Shown piece after piece: positions 26,076 to 33,765 of a DNA stretch of 64,000 bases. The notes under the pieces were generated by a model. That model was not told where the DNA came from, made no database searches, and was given only the letters and a program-made list of their open reading frames with translations. Origin of the DNA: Altibacter sp. HG106. Lineage in GTDB: Bacteria; Bacteroidota; Bacteroidia; Flavobacteriales; Flavobacteriaceae. Location of the stretch: the NCBI RefSeq assembly GCF_028561755.1, contig NZ_JAQQTD010000003.1, forward strand, positions 1 to 64,000, given 5' to 3'. Position 1 is the first letter of the stretch. Each line of letters begins with the position of its first letter. Position numbers and translations under genes: made by a program.

Positions 26076-29000
26076 CTAATTCTTGGATATGGAAACCGGA
26101 AAATCTTGACCAAATCCGAAACTTGACGGGTACTGCGGACTTCCCTTATACTGCTCTGAAATTTCGGGAACACGACTCTCAATATATGCCTTCAATTCGT
26201 TTACCGTAATACGCTTATCGCCGCTATCGGCCTTCCCTGATAAGGCTTCCAACAACACATAGGTAAAGACGCCATGTCCTAGTTCATCAAATTCGGTGGC
26301 GAATTGCTGACTCCCGGAAGCGGTAAGCCAATGGGTCCCCGTGCTGCGCGCTAACTGCGCAATCGCTTTCTCTTCGGCAGCCCCACGAGCGGTAAGACTG
26401 GTAAGCGCTCCTGCACTTTGGCAGGCATCGAGTATGTACAATTGCTTTTGCGCCGGGATGCCCGAAGCGATCAAGGTAAGTTCTTCCGCGGAAATCCCTT
26501 TTTGTGCCAAGGCTCCGTCATTCCCATACAATTGCGTCACATCGCTAGGCACCAAATAGAATTGTTGATCCCCTTCCGAAGCAATCACGCCGTGTCCCGC
26601 ATAATAGAAGACGAAGATATCTTGCGGATTGGCTGCGGAAGCAATCTCGGTAAGCTGATCGAGTATCGTACCGCGAACGGCATCGGTGTTTTTGATGAAA
26701 TAAAGATGTGTCTTGGTGGTGATGTCCTTCAATCCGCGCGACACGGTTTCCTGAAAACTGGAAGCATCCGCTACAGCGTAGTTCAGGTTGTATTTCGGGT
26801 TTTGGTATTCGTCAATTCCCACTACCATAATATGCGCTTGAATTCCCTGAGGCTGCAAGATTTGTTGATTAGCAGGAGTATATTGCACCAGAAGCTTTTC
26901 GGGGGCGCTTTCGGTTCCTTGCGCATTGATCGCAATAGCCGAAAATTCATTAGCTCCTTCCACCAACTTGATCGCAAACTCTCTTTTTCCGGGATCTGAA
27001 GGCACATCATCTTCTACCACTAAATTTCGGGCGCCACTCCCCACACGTTTTCCATTGTGATACAACCGCAATTCTTTTATGGCGTTACCCTTCGCGACTC
27101 CCGACAGCAGCAACGTTCCGGTACCATTCTCAGTATTGATTTCTGTAGGAGACGTATCGTCGTCCGTTACATACAGGTTGCGACTACCTTCTTTGTAGGT
27201 AAGCGAAACCACCGGAGGGGACGCTAATTTATTGATATTGGCATTCGATTTAAAACTGGATTGTGCCAGTACTTGATGGACCAGCCGCGGGGTATAGAAT
27301 TGGTCAAAAACGCTTTCGAGCGGTATCAACTCCTTTTGCTTCAGAAACGCTACTTTCTCCCATCCTTTTTGAGAACCGTCAAACTGTCCTGATGGGGTAT
27401 ACGCAATCCAGCTGTCGTCTTCAAAGACGTACATCCGCAACACCTCCTCCTGGGTGGTAACATCCATAAACTTCAATGCGCCTGACTCGGCATAGGCCAG
27501 GATATTATCGGTGATAAAATCTCCAAAGAGTTTACTGAAGTTTCCCAGATTAAATACCTGTAATTGTTTTCCGCTAGGGATGTGAAACACACTTTCGCCG
27601 GTGGTATATCCTGAGTACAATAATAATTCTTCGTTGGGAGACATAAAGCTGTCCATCAAGGTACCGTCGAAGGAGGTAGGAATACTCCGAAGCAAGGCCC
27701 CTGTTTGCGTGTCTAGTATTTCAATTTGATTGGACGTCGCATTAGAAACCAAAAGTTCCTTCCCGTTCTTCAAATGGAAAATCCCGAAATACCTGCCCTC
27801 TTTGCTCCATTTTTCGGTGTTCGAACCAAAATCGAAGTAATGTAATTTGTCGTACATGGGTTGATCTCCCTGAATTTCCCTGCTGGTGTAGGCTACGGAA
27901 TTGTTTACCGGAGACAGACTCATTCCCTTCCGAAAGGCACCAATATCCAAATCAAGGGGTTTGTAAAATACCTCCGCCTTGGTTTCGGTGTTCACTACAC
28001 GCAAGCCCGAAGTATACAAAAGGGCGAGCAATTTGGTTGTCGGACTAAAATCTGCGTACTGGGCATTGCGATAATTATCGATCAAATCGTTAAAACTTTC
28101 CGGTTTTCCACGATGAAATACTTTGATGGGATCTGCCGTGGTGGTGATACCAAACACCTTATCGGAGGTAGGGTCTGCGATCATTTCTCCATAGCCATAT
28201 TCATCGCGATAGGTGGGTTGGTATTTTGTAAACTGCGTCACTCGGGGATGTGCCATGAGTGAAAAAGTCTGACTCCCGTACTGTGCTGAAAACACGAGCT
28301 CGATGGCTTCCCCGTTCTGAAAACCGATAATATCCCGTGGCTCAATCACTTTATTACCGTATTGTAGTATAGGGTTGGCTTCAAACAATCGGTGTTTGGT
28401 TAGCGGCGCTTCGTAGCCCATTTGTCCATAAATATACTGGCCCGCGTCTATAAGTCCGTAGGTTTCTTCCAGTTCCGAAAAACTTCCCTTCACCGCTCCT
28501 GTTTCTGCATCGATCAAGGTTAGCGGTAGTACATAATTCTGAAGCCACACTCCCTTGCGATCTTTAGAATACATGGCATCGAAACGGGTGGGCGCAATAA
28601 TGCCCTCAACCTCTTTTTCATACGTAAATGTTTGATTCCAAAGAATGCTTCTCGTCGTGGGATTCATACGCATATAGACAAGCCTCTTGTCTTCCTGACG
28701 ATATACAGCACGCAGTACATCCCCATTATCAAACATCATAATATAGTCACCCTCTAGGGCGGTGTATTCTTGAGTAGCGAAAGAATACACATAGTACCTT
28801 CCATAATCGGGTGCCAAATACAGGTAGTTGCCATCGGCGCTATATTCAAAGAACAGTTGTTGCGCTTCAAAAGGAAGCGGTTGCATGTTGGCCGGAAGAA
28901 AGGTGCCGGTGATTTCATCCAGCGCGTATAAAGCGATCATATAGTTCTGATCTTGCGCCAGCAGTGTAAGCTGGCCTTTCCCCGCCTGTTCGAAATACGC

Positions 29001-29348
29001 AATGCTATAAATGCGCCCTAGCGGATATTCCTTCAACTTTTGAAAGGTCTCGGTACTATAGGTGGTAATCACATTATTTCCTAAGGTGTATACTATCCCT
29101 GACTTCTCGTTAATTTCTAGTTCGGTGATGTTGTCGGACAGGTCGATGGTTTTATACAACAAACCATTTTTCTCATTCCAGAATTTCAGGGTTTTGTCCA
29201 TGCTCCCATGGGTTACCAAAACGTTTCGTTTAGCGTCTAAGACGGTGGCGGTAATTTGCTGTGAATGATTGCTTTGAACCACGAATTGTTGCTGCGCTTT
29301 CGCGGAAATCCCAAACAGTACACACCAAAGAATGAATACGGCTCTCAT
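26076..29348 (-). CDS. Secreted WD40-like propeller with C-terminal caspase (C14) domain
   Basis: The protein has 1090 residues. A signal peptide (1-18, AKA-Q) sends it out of the cytoplasm. Residues about 20-700 are WD40-like propeller repeats ('LDAKRNVLVTHGSMDKTLKFWN'). A beta-sandwich segment spans about 720-830. The caspase fold begins near 838, with catalytic His919 in 'YYAGHG' and Cys976 in 'ILDACQSAG', so the dyad is intact. At 774-783 it carries RNLVVEDDVP, identical to residues 358-367 of the papain-like protease encoded just upstream, one base away. Caspase-like bacterial enzymes commonly cut after Arg/Lys or Asp. The propeller may bind partners or substrates. Its biological role is unknown. 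Confidence 0.9.
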   Translation of the reverse strand: MRAVFILWCVLFGISAKAQQQFVVQSNHSQQITATVLDAKRNVLVTHGSMDKTLKFWNEKNGLLYKTIDLSDNITELEINEKSGIVYTLGNNVITTYSTETFQKLKEYPLGRIYSIAYFEQAGKGQLTLLAQDQNYMIALYALDEITGTFLPANMQPLPFEAQQLFFEYSADGNYLYLAPDYGRYYVYSFATQEYTALEGDYIMMFDNGDVLRAVYRQEDKRLVYMRMNPTTRSILWNQTFTYEKEVEGIIAPTRFDAMYSKDRKGVWLQNYVLPLTLIDAETGAVKGSFSELEETYGLIDAGQYIYGQMGYEAPLTKHRLFEANPILQYGNKVIEPRDIIGFQNGEAIELVFSAQYGSQTFSLMAHPRVTQFTKYQPTYRDEYGYGEMIADPTSDKVFGITTTADPIKVFHRGKPESFNDLIDNYRNAQYADFSPTTKLLALLYTSGLRVVNTETKAEVFYKPLDLDIGAFRKGMSLSPVNNSVAYTSREIQGDQPMYDKLHYFDFGSNTEKWSKEGRYFGIFHLKNGKELLVSNATSNQIEILDTQTGALLRSIPTSFDGTLMDSFMSPNEELLLYSGYTTGESVFHIPSGKQLQVFNLGNFSKLFGDFITDNILAYAESGALKFMDVTTQEEVLRMYVFEDDSWIAYTPSGQFDGSQKGWEKVAFLKQKELIPLESVFDQFYTPRLVHQVLAQSSFKSNANINKLASPPVVSLTYKEGSRNLYVTDDDTSPTEINTENGTGTLLLSGVAKGNAIKELRLYHNGKRVGSGARNLVVEDDVPSDPGKREFAIKLVEGANEFSAIAINAQGTESAPEKLLVQYTPANQQILQPQGIQAHIMVVGIDEYQNPKYNLNYAVADASSFQETVSRGLKDITTKTHLYFIKNTDAVRGTILDQLTEIASAANPQDIFVFYYAGHGVIASEGDQQFYLVPSDVTQLYGNDGALAQKGISAEELTLIASGIPAQKQLYILDACQSAGALTSLTARGAAEEKAIAQLARSTGTHWLTASGSQQFATEFDELGHGVFTYVLLEALSGKADSGDKRITVNELKAYIESRVPEISEQYKGSPQYPSSFGFGQDFPVSISKN

Positions 29349-29349
29349 C

Positions 29350-30915
29350 TTATTGGTGTGTTATTTCTACCATCAACGGAACCACATAGCCTTCGGCTCC
29401 TTCTTTTACGCTAAATCCGGGTGTAGCCGATTCGTAGCTTACCATTTTTTTGTCGATGAGTTTATCGCCCAAGGCCGCCTTGATCTTGGTAGTTAATCCG
29501 CCTTCTGTCGCCTCCATTTTAGCCAGTAGATCGGCCTCGTCTAATTGTTGTTGACTGAACAAGATCAGTAGGTAGTCGGTTCCGGGGTTATCGTCCATCC
29601 GAATCACCTTCTTTTCGCTAGGGAAGGCCAACTCGGCATTGGCAGAAATCAAGGGCGACATTCCGTCTTCAAACGGAAGAATCTTGTTGATTTTTTGGGT
29701 GAGGTCGGTAGCGAAGGCATAGATATACCCTTCATTTTCGTTTTCTAAATAAAATCGGAAACGCGTCCCGCTTGGATAGGCCTTGTCCATTTTGTAGGCA
29801 ACCAGCTCCTCTCCCGGAACATCATCTTCCACCACGAGATTTCGAGTAGACGTGCGCTGGGTTGGCATGTCCATTCCTGTATTAGTTACGAATCGCAAGC
29901 TTCCTTTTGGGAATTTTTGAGCAATAGGCGATTGATCCAAGGCTTCCGGTAAACTCGGTTGCCCCGGGCGCCCGGGCTTGCTAGGTGACCCTTTGGGTTG
30001 GTTGGGCACTACCTTTGGTGCACCAGGCGGACGCGGCACTACCTTCGGCTTCCCAATATCTTCTTTCTTCGTGTAATAACTGTACGCCTGTAAGGCTCCC
30101 ATGGCCCACTCTTCGTATTCGGTATAGGGTACCCATATAAAGCCACCATCACCCCATTGGGTTCCCCAGCTATTCAAAAGACGAAAAGCGCCCCCTTCGT
30201 AATTGTCGTCATAGCCAACCACTACCATGGCGTGATACCCGTGTTGCTTGGCTGTAGTTCCTTTTTCTTCCGGAGAAGAACGCCAAACTCGCTGTGCTTT
30301 GAAAAAGCTCTGCGGAAGTTTCATTCCCAACAACACCGGGTAGCCTTCTGCCAATGCTTTTTTCGTAGCATTGGTTTTTACACCATAGTCGGTTGTATTA
30401 AAAAAGAATAAGGTTTGATAGTCCCGGATACGATAATCGATAGCCTCCATTTGTACCGTCGTGGAAATTTGCGGATTACAGACATACGGCAGCGTACTTA
30501 ATCGCGGAGCCCCATATACTTTCAGCGCCTCTAAGCCCAACTTCGGATTGGCACCTTTATCACAATTGAGGTCGTCTTCTTTTTTGATCAAGGAATAGAC
30601 AAAGGAAGGCGATAAGGCATTGGCCGTTATGGTTTGTTTGTTGGTGAGTCCGTTGTCCTTCGCTAGCATAATTGTGCGTAAGCCGTAGGCCGAAGCGTAG
30701 GCCACACAGGTTCCGTATTGTCCCTGGTTTCCGGGAATGGGAGCGTATTGCTCTAGCGAATAAGAGGAAGGTAAGGTTTCATAAGTCGAAGCGGTGAACT
30801 GCGCCTTATATGGAATGCTTCGATAGGATTCTTCATCCCAAACCATTCCGGTGGGATACTGTTGCGCAAAAGAAATACTAACGAATAATAAGAGTAGTAA
30901 TGATAAGTGTTTCAT
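29350..30915 (-). CDS. Secreted papain-like (C1) cysteine protease with DUF4384-like domain
   Basis: The protein has 521 residues. A signal peptide (1-17) precedes a C1A catalytic domain (about 50-280) with Cys70 in 'GQYGTCVAYAS', His228 in 'GYHAMVVVGYDD' and Asn248 in 'LLNSWGTQWGDGG', so the triad is intact. There is no obvious inhibitory propeptide. A Pro/Lys-rich linker (289-324) follows, then RNLVVEDDVP at 358-367, then a domain like DUF4384 (about 370-480, 'FRFYLENENEGYIYAFATD'). It is the first gene of a two-gene unit with the caspase, which starts one base after this stop codon. It is probably periplasmic or on the surface. Confidence 0.9.
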   Translation of the reverse strand: MKHLSLLLLLFVSISFAQQYPTGMVWDEESYRSIPYKAQFTASTYETLPSSYSLEQYAPIPGNQGQYGTCVAYASAYGLRTIMLAKDNGLTNKQTITANALSPSFVYSLIKKEDDLNCDKGANPKLGLEALKVYGAPRLSTLPYVCNPQISTTVQMEAIDYRIRDYQTLFFFNTTDYGVKTNATKKALAEGYPVLLGMKLPQSFFKAQRVWRSSPEEKGTTAKQHGYHAMVVVGYDDNYEGGAFRLLNSWGTQWGDGGFIWVPYTEYEEWAMGALQAYSYYTKKEDIGKPKVVPRPPGAPKVVPNQPKGSPSKPGRPGQPSLPEALDQSPIAQKFPKGSLRFVTNTGMDMPTQRTSTRNLVVEDDVPGEELVAYKMDKAYPSGTRFRFYLENENEGYIYAFATDLTQKINKILPFEDGMSPLISANAELAFPSEKKVIRMDDNPGTDYLLILFSQQQLDEADLLAKMEATEGGLTTKIKAALGDKLIDKKMVSYESATPGFSVKEGAEGYVVPLMVEITHQ

Positions 30916-30999: not shown

Positions 31000-33765
31000 T
31001 TACAAATTGTAGCGAACTACCAACATCATGATGCGTGGTAGGACGAAATACTGACTCGTTGTATTGAACTGATCGTTAAAACTGTCGTTATTCAAGAATT
31101 CCGTATTGAGCAAGTTGGTACCTCGAATGGAAAATTCCCACGGACTATCGCCTTTTTGGTAATACAGGTTGGCATTGACGAACGAATAACTATTATCTAC
31201 CGTATTGTCTTTGTTGGTGTAATTGTAGTAGTTCCATTCGGCGTCAAAGGTGAAATCCTGCAGAAAACGAATATCTACATTCGCGAAGGGCTGGTGGGTA
31301 TAGAACGTTTGTTCGAGTCCGCCATTGTCATAGTCATTTAAAATCAATCCGTACCCAAGCTCGAAATTCGGCCACTCTTTAAAATTACTGCGAATACTTC
31401 CGCGGTAATTCTGTGTAAAGCTCTCGCTGGTTCTTATGTTTTGGGTATCATCATTGGCATCACCTCCGCCCCCCGGAAGCGACTGAATGATATTGTTCGA
31501 TTTTAAATACGCGACGTTGGCGTTGGCAATAAATTCGACCTTCTTGACTCGCTTGCTAAACCTTCCGAAGGCAGAAAGGGTTTCATCGGGAAAGTTGCTG
31601 TTTAGGTTCACAGGACTGCTTACCTGGTTGATGGCGATAATATTGGTATTGTTTTTAATCCCTTCCACACGACGGGTATAGCTAAGGTTTCCACTGATGT
31701 TGGTATAGCTGAAGAGGTTGAAATTGAAATAGGTTAGATTATACGTATGTGAAATGGCGTTTTCTAAGAATCGATTCCCACGAAAGAGTCGGTTGTAATT
31801 ATTGAACACAAACGCTTCCGCATAATTGATCACGTCGGTATATTCAGCTGCCAGCGCATAATTAAAGCGCAACGATTCACTTTTCTTGATCTGCCAGATG
31901 GCATTCACATCCGGTAGCAGCATCCAATTGTTTTGTCGGTTTTCAAACCCCAATTGCTCGTTTACCAGCGTATAGTTGTGTAAGGTCACTCCGGGCGTAA
32001 AAATGAACTGTCCGGTCTTTACTTTGTAATGTAAGCCCAAAAAGATATCAGAGAATCCGTAGGCCACATCATTTTGAAGGGGTTGTGCGTTTCCGTCGAT
32101 GGGAGGTGTTTCGGTAAGATCGCTTTGTGAGCCGTTGTCGAGCAACTGGAAAATGTTCGAGTCAAATTCTTGATCGCTAATTGTGGCTCCTGCTGTCACG
32201 TTTAGGTTGCTCGTATTATTCAATACATAAAACCAATCGACCTTCGCATCCAGCTTATGGGTTTTCACATTTTTTTGCTGATTCACATTAAAACGAGTTT
32301 GCGTGGTATCTACGGGAAGGATGCCGGGGAAAGGTTGCAGGTCGGTAATGGCATTGTAAAACGGATCTTCCTCCTGCCACAAATGTTGTACTTGGCCGGC
32401 GAAGATGTTCTTTTCATTTAAGGTATAATAGGCATTGATATTTTGATTGATGCTGAAGGGGTCGTTCTCTTTGGCTTCGGAAATATTGTTAGTCGCCGTT
32501 TCAAACTGCGAAACCGTCATGGCATCTTCGGTTTGCTGAGATCCTTTCACCAAGACATCGTAATCTAACTGAAAATCTACGTTCGGCTTGTACACCGCAC
32601 TTCCTTTGAACATCCCCAGTTGCGTTTGTTGGTCGTTGGTAGAAGTGGTCGTTTCGGTCGTTCCGGTAGCGATATATCTTCGGATGGAATTCTGAACAAT
32701 ATTCGTTCGGTTATCTGAAAGGATTGTAAAGCCGCTAAGATCTAAGCTTTCCGAGGTATTCCAACTAAAATTACCGGCCACGAATTTAGCTTCAATCGCA
32801 TTAGCGCGATTGTTCTGTGCCACAGCGAAACCCAGATCTCCTTCCGAAATATTAAAACGCGTTCCGCCGCCGCGATTGAAATTTCGGAAGCCTCCGGTAA
32901 AGTTGAAATAATCGCGCCAGGTAAACGGTACTTCGCCAATATCGTTGAAGTCGGTGATCAGGTTAATGCTGTATTTCGGACTGTAATAAAACAATTTGGG
33001 ATGCACCAAATAGCGCGCATCGTCATCGCCATCAATACCTGCTCCGGCTGTTAGCTCCCCGAACCAGAAATTCTTTTTTCCTTCTTTCAGTTTGATATTA
33101 ATAGCCACATTGTCCTGATCGTTCCCCAAACCGCGCATCTGGTCGACCTCATTGTAATTCCGAAGCACCTGTACCTTATCGACGGCATCGGCCGGAATAT
33201 TCTTGGTAGCGAGCTTTGAATCGCCATCAAAGAAATCTTTTCCTTCCACCATCACCTTGGTTACCGGCTTTCCTTCTACTTGTATCTCACCATCGTCGTT
33301 CACCTCGATTCCCGGTAGGTTTTTCATAACATCGCCTAGTTTCCGCTCGTCGCCTCGATTAAAAGAATCGGCATTGTAGACAATGGTATCTCCTTTTACC
33401 GTCACAGGCATTTCGTACACAATTTCCACCCCGTCTAATTGGTCGGCCTTCGATTGTAGCACAAAATCTTGTGTCATATTCGCAGCCCCTTCTGGCACTT
33501 CTAAGATGAGCTCTGTCGTTTCATAGCCTAAAAAGCTCGCCTTTAACAAATAAGTATTTCCCACGGGCAAATCGACTTGATAACGACCTTCGTAGTTGGT
33601 AATAGCATACGATTCGATAGCCCCGGTTTCCTGCACGGAAGCGATCACATTCGCCAATTCTAACGGGTCTCCAATACTGTCTTTAATGGTTCCGCGTACT
33701 TGAATACTTTGCGCGGTTGCGCTGAGGCAAAAGAAGAGGCCAAGGGCCCACAAATAATGATTCAT
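31000..33765 (-). CDS. TonB-dependent-receptor-like outer-membrane barrel
   Basis: The protein has 921 residues. Signal peptide 1-18, a carboxypeptidase-regulatory-like domain (about 22-108, 'VRGTIKDSIGDPLELANVI'), a plug-like part ('YNADSFNRGDERKLGDVMKNLPGIEV', about 130-156) and a long C-terminal OMP_b-brl_3-type barrel ending in 'MMLVVRYNL'. This is the SusC-like/TonB-associated class used for import or export across the outer membrane. It is the third gene after two GLPGLI genes, 24 bases downstream of the second, a pairing seen repeatedly in flavobacteria. The substrate is unknown. Confidence 0.88.
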   Translation of the reverse strand: MNHYLWALGLFFCLSATAQSIQVRGTIKDSIGDPLELANVIASVQETGAIESYAITNYEGRYQVDLPVGNTYLLKASFLGYETTELILEVPEGAANMTQDFVLQSKADQLDGVEIVYEMPVTVKGDTIVYNADSFNRGDERKLGDVMKNLPGIEVNDDGEIQVEGKPVTKVMVEGKDFFDGDSKLATKNIPADAVDKVQVLRNYNEVDQMRGLGNDQDNVAINIKLKEGKKNFWFGELTAGAGIDGDDDARYLVHPKLFYYSPKYSINLITDFNDIGEVPFTWRDYFNFTGGFRNFNRGGGTRFNISEGDLGFAVAQNNRANAIEAKFVAGNFSWNTSESLDLSGFTILSDNRTNIVQNSIRRYIATGTTETTTSTNDQQTQLGMFKGSAVYKPNVDFQLDYDVLVKGSQQTEDAMTVSQFETATNNISEAKENDPFSINQNINAYYTLNEKNIFAGQVQHLWQEEDPFYNAITDLQPFPGILPVDTTQTRFNVNQQKNVKTHKLDAKVDWFYVLNNTSNLNVTAGATISDQEFDSNIFQLLDNGSQSDLTETPPIDGNAQPLQNDVAYGFSDIFLGLHYKVKTGQFIFTPGVTLHNYTLVNEQLGFENRQNNWMLLPDVNAIWQIKKSESLRFNYALAAEYTDVINYAEAFVFNNYNRLFRGNRFLENAISHTYNLTYFNFNLFSYTNISGNLSYTRRVEGIKNNTNIIAINQVSSPVNLNSNFPDETLSAFGRFSKRVKKVEFIANANVAYLKSNNIIQSLPGGGGDANDDTQNIRTSESFTQNYRGSIRSNFKEWPNFELGYGLILNDYDNGGLEQTFYTHQPFANVDIRFLQDFTFDAEWNYYNYTNKDNTVDNSYSFVNANLYYQKGDSPWEFSIRGTNLLNTEFLNNDSFNDQFNTTSQYFVLPRIMMLVVRYNL

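Follow-up and report, generated by a model that had tools for sequence, protein, structure and literature searches.

A motif shared by adjacent caspase-like and papain-like protease genes of Altibacter sp. HG106 as a candidate docking element

Introduction

Why should two neighbouring proteases of different folds carry the same ten residues? The question is raised by a gene pair of the flavobacterium Altibacter sp. HG106, which lies in a stretch of 64,000 nucleotides (assembly GCF_028561755.1, contig NZ_JAQQTD010000003.1, positions 1 to 64,000), hereafter called the window. One gene encodes a caspase-like protein with a peptidase C14 domain and the other a papain-like protein with a peptidase C1 domain, and both contain the decapeptide RNLVVEDDVP. 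A reading of the window made from the sequence only had proposed that this string may be either a cleavage site for the caspase or a docking motif. To our knowledge, little has been learned so far about what exported bacterial caspases do.

Results

A repeated motif that accompanies the gene pair

The decapeptide is the longest instance of a shorter motif, RNLxVxDD, which occurs three times in the gene pair and constitutes the conserved core; the terminal VP of the decapeptide is not conserved. Both decapeptides are found at the residues given by the sequence-only reading (Table 1), however, a third copy, RNLYVTDD, had been overlooked, which sits 51 residues ahead of the decapeptide in the caspase. 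We favor the reading that RNLxVxDD is a displayed docking motif that joins the two proteases, and assign it a probability of about 0.5, because of its pattern of fixed and free residues, its position in loops, and its use at four places.

The motif is tied to the gene pair. Ten loci contain both genes, i.e., the window, G001 (with the papain gene split across two contigs), G233, G114, G105, G283, G206, L005 (HKST-UBA79), L006 (Paraflavitalea) and G418. All 14 caspases encoded there read RNLxV at both sites of the immunoglobulin-like (Ig-like) domain (28/28 sites), as do nine of the ten papains, and 13 caspases of the WD40-Ig type that have no C1 match in the 15–19 kb fetched around them (L157–L169) read RNLxV at neither site (0/13). 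The co-variation in homologous pairs, which the sequence-only reading had named as a check, is thus largely present. Among 299 genomes of the family, close relatives of the caspase (>500 bits; next match 70) and of the papain (>750 bits; next match 181) occur in the same seven genomes. The G418 locus is a cluster of ~34 kb (L154–L156, contig C1, ~208–242 kb) with five motif-bearing caspases and one papain with two motif copies, the additional one in a C-terminal loop where the other papains have no such stretch.

For genome-wide searches, a broad degenerate DNA pattern for RNLxVxDD was used, in which Ser may replace Arg and Phe may replace Leu. The 3.18-Mb genome contains three matches, exactly at the three copies of the pair, and two matches of the pattern read backward. 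Across 17 genomes, the matches within the pair number three each in G000, G001, G233, G114, G105, G283 and G206, six in G418, and two in G583 (Paraflavitalea); G233, G206 and G583 have one extra match each, in which a key position is occupied by Phe or Ser. Eight papain-bearing genomes without the pair yielded six pattern matches, none of them at the papain locus. The pattern is matched in 55 of 385 genomes of the class, and clustered matches are present solely in G000 (three) and G418 (six), both of which bear the pair; the other 53 genomes have one match, or two that are ≥98 kb from each other or on separate contigs. The backward control pattern likewise matched in many of the 385 genomes.

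Caspase-side neighbors are shared by eight of the ten loci (the window, G001, G233, G114, G105, G283, G206 and L005), which are therefore largely one inherited block. The papain-side neighbors are shared in G114, G105 and G283, but not in G206, and are unreadable in G001, G233 and L005, where a contig end is near. The L006 and G418 loci lie in other surroundings.

Conserved residues and modeled loops

Among the 14 caspases, invariant positions account for 1 of 621 alignment columns in residues 20–640, 25 of 111 in the Ig-like part, and 87 of 242 in the C14 part, and ten of the 25 invariant Ig columns are supplied by the two motif copies. Motif positions 1, 3 and 5 (R, L and V) are fixed while position 4 is free, as would suit an extended strand that is recognized by one of its faces. 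L005 (FVDDD) is the sole case in which the two proteins have changed alike; elsewhere position 4 varies, and for this reason we make no claim of residue-by-residue co-evolution.

When the Ig-like and DUF4384 regions were compared as profiles, 11 columns aligned, and these are the motif (probability 14%, P = 0.0019); beyond the motif, the two regions therefore show no likeness. A common origin of the two was considered and rejected, on this ground and in view of the fold searches described below.

AlphaFold models were built from six sequences. In the otherwise confidently modeled C-terminal region of the papain, the predicted local distance difference test score (pLDDT) drops below 50 at residues 357–368, i.e., at the motif, and at 415–418 alone. 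In the Ig-like part of the caspase model, it does so at model residues 132–144 (residues 771–783, copy 2) and 88–93 (residues 727–732, the end of copy 1); the C14 part of this model is itself poor. The models, weak as they are, suggest that the motif copies lie in loops, and motif-less homologs mostly have shorter loops at the corresponding places. Burial in a confidently modeled core, which would have counted against the sequence-only reading, is not seen. That reading had placed the papain copy between a linker and the C-terminal domain; the copy is, however, not part of a plain linker but of a loop close to where the confidently modeled, DUF4384-bearing C-terminal region begins. A fold search relates the Ig-like part of the caspase to Fn3-like modules (3pe9), whereas the best match for the papain model was no better than E = 0.008. 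At E = 0.01, the PDB gave no sequence match, whether the query was the isolated caspase domain or profile A1.

A fast-changing N-terminal half

Over residues 20–640, taken as three blocks, the window caspase is 68–71% identical to that of G114, which belongs to another genus, and 48–56% identical to that of the congener G001. The C14 domain displays 82% identity to G114 and 98% to G001, and for residues 180–521 of the papain the values are 76 and 94%, respectively. The N-terminal tree (seven rows, G206 left out) rejects a clade of the window and G001 (approximately unbiased test, p-AU = 0.00027), and the C14 tree (eight rows) rejects a clade of the window and G114 (p-AU = 4.7e-6), with p-values that are optimistic since the tested clades were named after the identities were known. 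Between the window and G001, nonsynonymous divergence in intervals of 60 codons amounts to 0.24–0.67 over residues 1–660 and to <0.03 over residues 841–1080, with synonymous divergence near saturation. The N-terminal part was apparently exchanged between genera, and the N-terminal half has the look of a recognition part that changes rapidly and can be exchanged, attached to an effector that is conserved.

In BLAST alignments to the window caspase, the caspases of G206, L006 and G418, which have the motif unchanged, are covered in their later part only. The N-terminal half was considered as the receptor of the motif, and is an unlikely one because it has diverged, with its single invariant column and to the point of being barely recognizable, in loci with an unchanged motif.

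Alternative explanations

The docking reading competes chiefly with the possibility that the motif is a processing site, at which the caspase cuts after the invariant Arg (R/NL) in itself and in the papain, activating one or both. The Arg is kept in 38 of the 38 motif copies listed, the copies lie in loops of the weak models, and Asp861 and Asp974 of the C14 domain, conserved in 27/27 caspases, fit an Arg/Lys pocket; we take these two for the likely pocket residues, presumably equivalent to those of Arg/Lys-specific relatives. The available text of PMC5756287 reports that the non-metazoan C14 enzymes characterized to date, as distinct from caspases, cut after Arg or Lys, and that of PMC13304501 describes a metacaspase pocket. 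Cleavage after Arg, however, leaves unexplained that the residues following it (N, L, V and D) are fixed while those preceding it vary; moreover, two of the three cuts would fall within one Ig-like domain, and the Paraflavitalea papain lacks the site. We regard processing at Arg as a tentative option.

It is rather unlikely that the motif is a structural or ion-binding loop that stabilizes its own β-domain, in the manner of, e.g., calcium-binding acidic loops, and that arose or was kept separately in the two proteins. The acidic end of the motif would suit such a role, and related strings exist outside the pair. A looser RG[LFI]x[VI] is present at or near the place of copy 1 in seven caspases of other architecture, in loci with DUF4384 papains (of which that of G414 reads STRGLTVV and that of G131 SRNFNVV), and the unpaired L160 caspase reads TRGFKI at the place of copy 2; the motif may thus in part be a long-standing feature of the domain. 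On the other hand, the same eight-residue pattern is found in two otherwise dissimilar domains and goes with the gene pair, and calcium binding does not call for Arg-Asn-Leu.

Self-cleavage after Asp, as in animal caspases (VEDD/), would account for the acidic stretch but is very improbable, as no single Asp is retained across all copies (copy 2 has D, E, N or A at position 8, and E can occur at position 7 of copy 1 and of the G418 papain copy) and the likely pocket residues are acidic. With respect to the choice between cleavage and docking offered by the sequence-only reading, docking fits better, cleavage after Asp is disfavored and cleavage after Arg is possible, and its interpretation is partly supported.

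Gene conversion, or a mobile coding element that copied the peptide, is hardly credible either: 25 of 30 bases are equal between the coding DNA of the caspase and papain decapeptides, but independent coding averages 23.2/30 and gives ≥25 in 21% of draws, i.e., synonymous differences are no fewer than under independent coding, and the flanks are unrelated (13 and 15 of 60 bases match) and the genome holds no further copies. Short peptides can recur by chance, but a chance match is negligible here because residue shuffles of both proteins (n = 2000) give even a shared 7-mer in only 0.25%, and the motif is conserved across ten loci. Outside the decapeptide, the longest word common to both proteins has at most four residues.

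DUF4384 and caspases

DUF4384 is caspase-linked, as a neighbor or a fusion, in part of its range. A same-strand C14 gene is present in the fetched stretch at seven of 12 papain loci that lack the strict motif and in which BLAST detects a DUF4384 part, and at none of ten papain loci without a DUF4384 part. Viewed from the caspase side (flanks of ~1.5 kb), an adjacent separate DUF4384 gene without a C1 match occurs at 8 of 28 loci, with DUF4384 checked by Pfam in three of these eight neighbors, and G361 has a C14-DUF4384 fusion. The caspases of the WD40-Ig type at L137–L140, L142, L143, L146 and L148 have as direct neighbors DUF4384 proteins that look exported and possess no protease domain. The consulted part of PMC8283722 counts DUF4384 in 23 of 473 cyanobacterial orthocaspases. 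The occurrence of DUF4384 as neighbor, as fusion and, here, fused to a papain suggests a possible caspase-partner domain, which is a testable role for a DUF.

Features of the gene pair and its neighbors

The papain-like gene is the upstream one, and a single base separates it from the caspase-like gene (Table 1). All three Pfam assignments exceed their cut-offs, i.e., Peptidase C14 (PF00656; 51 bits, cut-off 21.4) in the caspase, and Peptidase C1 (PF00112; 37.2 bits, cut-off 20.7) and DUF4384 (PF14326; 34.8 bits, cut-off 27) in the papain. The five WD40-type Pfam matches in the window caspase, in contrast, are each below the curated cut-off, although some G418 and L006 caspases pass that of PF00400 (WD40). 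The C14 domain starts 57 residues after the motif, close to the ~55 residues estimated in the sequence-only reading, which had also called both active sites intact, and they look so: the His919-Cys976 dyad is conserved in 27/27 aligned caspases, and in the papains Gln64 and Cys70 are conserved in 23/23 rows with sequence there, and His228 and Asn248 in 24/24. Judged by eye, a signal peptide is apparent at the start of both proteins, and as part of the docking reading, and with the same even odds, the two genes would form an exported two-protease unit.

Table 1 Features of the caspase–papain gene pair, with positions in the window
Feature	Residues	Position	Strand	Remark
Papain-like gene	521 residues	29350..30915	minus	C1 peptidase domain and C-terminal DUF4384
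C1 peptidase domain, papain	63–265	30121..30729	minus	
C-terminal region as modeled, papain	334–521	29353..29916	minus	includes DUF4384 (Pfam, residues 380–456)
Motif copy 3, RNLVVEDDVP, papain	358–367	29815..29844	minus	RNLxVxDD core at residues 358–365
Caspase-like gene	1090 residues	26076..29348	minus	weak WD40-type matches in the N-terminal half, then an Ig-like domain and C14
Fast-evolving N-terminal half, caspase	20–640	27429..29291	minus	apparently exchanged between genera
Ig-like (Fn3-like) region, caspase	~716–826	26871..27203	minus	contains motif copies 1 and 2
Motif copy 1, RNLYVTDD, caspase	723–730	27159..27182	minus	missed by the sequence-only reading
Motif copy 2, RNLVVEDDVP, caspase	774–783	27000..27029	minus	
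C14 domain, caspase	841–1075	26124..26828	minus	Pfam

Three residues past the catalytic Cys, residue 979 of the caspase (26412–26414) is Ala in 14/14 motif-bearing caspases and Gly in 11 of 13 others. Beside the pair lies a gene for a carboxypeptidase-regulatory-like protein of the outer-membrane type (31000–33765), and nearby are two adjacent genes of the Porph_ging family (PF09697; 33790–35589); both features are kept in G114, G105 and G283.

Discussion

If RNLxVxDD is a short linear docking motif, loops would display it, with two copies on the Ig-like domain ahead of C14 and one on the papain region that bears DUF4384, and one receptor site would bind the motif of both proteins. The putative receptor is more likely to reside on a conserved part (C14, C1 or DUF4384) than in the hypervariable N-terminal half, and since the caspase keeps both copies where the L006 papain has none, it probably belongs to the caspase side or else to a third protein. 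By means of its own motif copies the caspase would be held or assembled, either in cis or from one caspase copy to another, whereas the papain copy would recruit the second protease to that complex, and the propeller-like N-terminal half would be the sensor. Binding, receptor, sensing and activation are steps that we infer. The motif is kept across genera despite the diverged N-terminal half, which makes it a mutable handle on how the caspase meets its partner.

Several observations weigh against docking. The structure models are weak, with a mean pLDDT of 50.6 and 48.8. Eight of the ten loci are one block, hence the co-variation is partly shared ancestry and the independent evidence is thin; of the two loci in other surroundings (L006 and G418), one, that of Paraflavitalea (L006), has a papain without the motif. 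A search with the DUF4384 part gave 30 further loci, of which two have a C14 gene, and many of the papains in this set look like another branch. Finally, an RG-type match precedes the C14 domain in 4 of 52 other caspases, none of which has a papain in the locus.

Taken further than docking itself, and put forward tentatively, the pair could be an exported bacterial caspase cascade, in which the exchangeable propeller-like half senses a target, and the docking-motif repeats assemble the caspases and recruit the papain-type protease. If true, such a cascade would be a bacterial counterpart of caspase activation platforms, with proteases of two clans as its components.

Neither the pair nor the motif was recognized in a description found by our literature search, and the string RNLVVEDD was found in none of the papers searched; the term DUF4384 was matched in five. 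In a PADLOC scan of the two proteins, the generic caspase model alone matches the caspase, and no model matches the papain. Among curated families, the EACC1-associated caspase (NCBIfam NF047832) has a related caspase domain, however, the score of 85.1 bits is under the curated cut-off of 140. The papain shares the conserved Gln, Cys, His and Asn of the papain family (PF00112), but differs from it in the C-terminal DUF4384 part and the motif.

Polymorphic-toxin systems, as far as the consulted part of PMC3482391 describes them, also employ releasing peptidases of caspase-like and papain-like folds together with variable domains; unlike there, no toxin domain was recognized in the two window proteins, and the variable half is N-terminal here. 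Prokaryotic orthocaspases and metacaspases (PF00656), including the WD40-bearing forms covered in sections of PMC3501461, are alike in having a C14 domain with a His-Cys dyad, and passages of PMC3501461 and PMC6426788 show that members of this family can carry accessory domains of the WD40 and Ig-like types. The operon section of the 2012 survey PMC3501461, which counts proteolysis domains in 23 metacaspase operons, names no such pair, and the present system differs from the enzymes as described there by its C1-DUF4384 partner gene and the shared, repeated RNLxVxDD. The coupling of C14 with DUF4384 is common to the pair and to the cyanobacterial DUF4384 orthocaspases of PMC8283722, but in the latter, as that part of the source presents them, DUF4384 belongs to the same protein, whereas here it is fused to a papain-like protease encoded beside the caspase.

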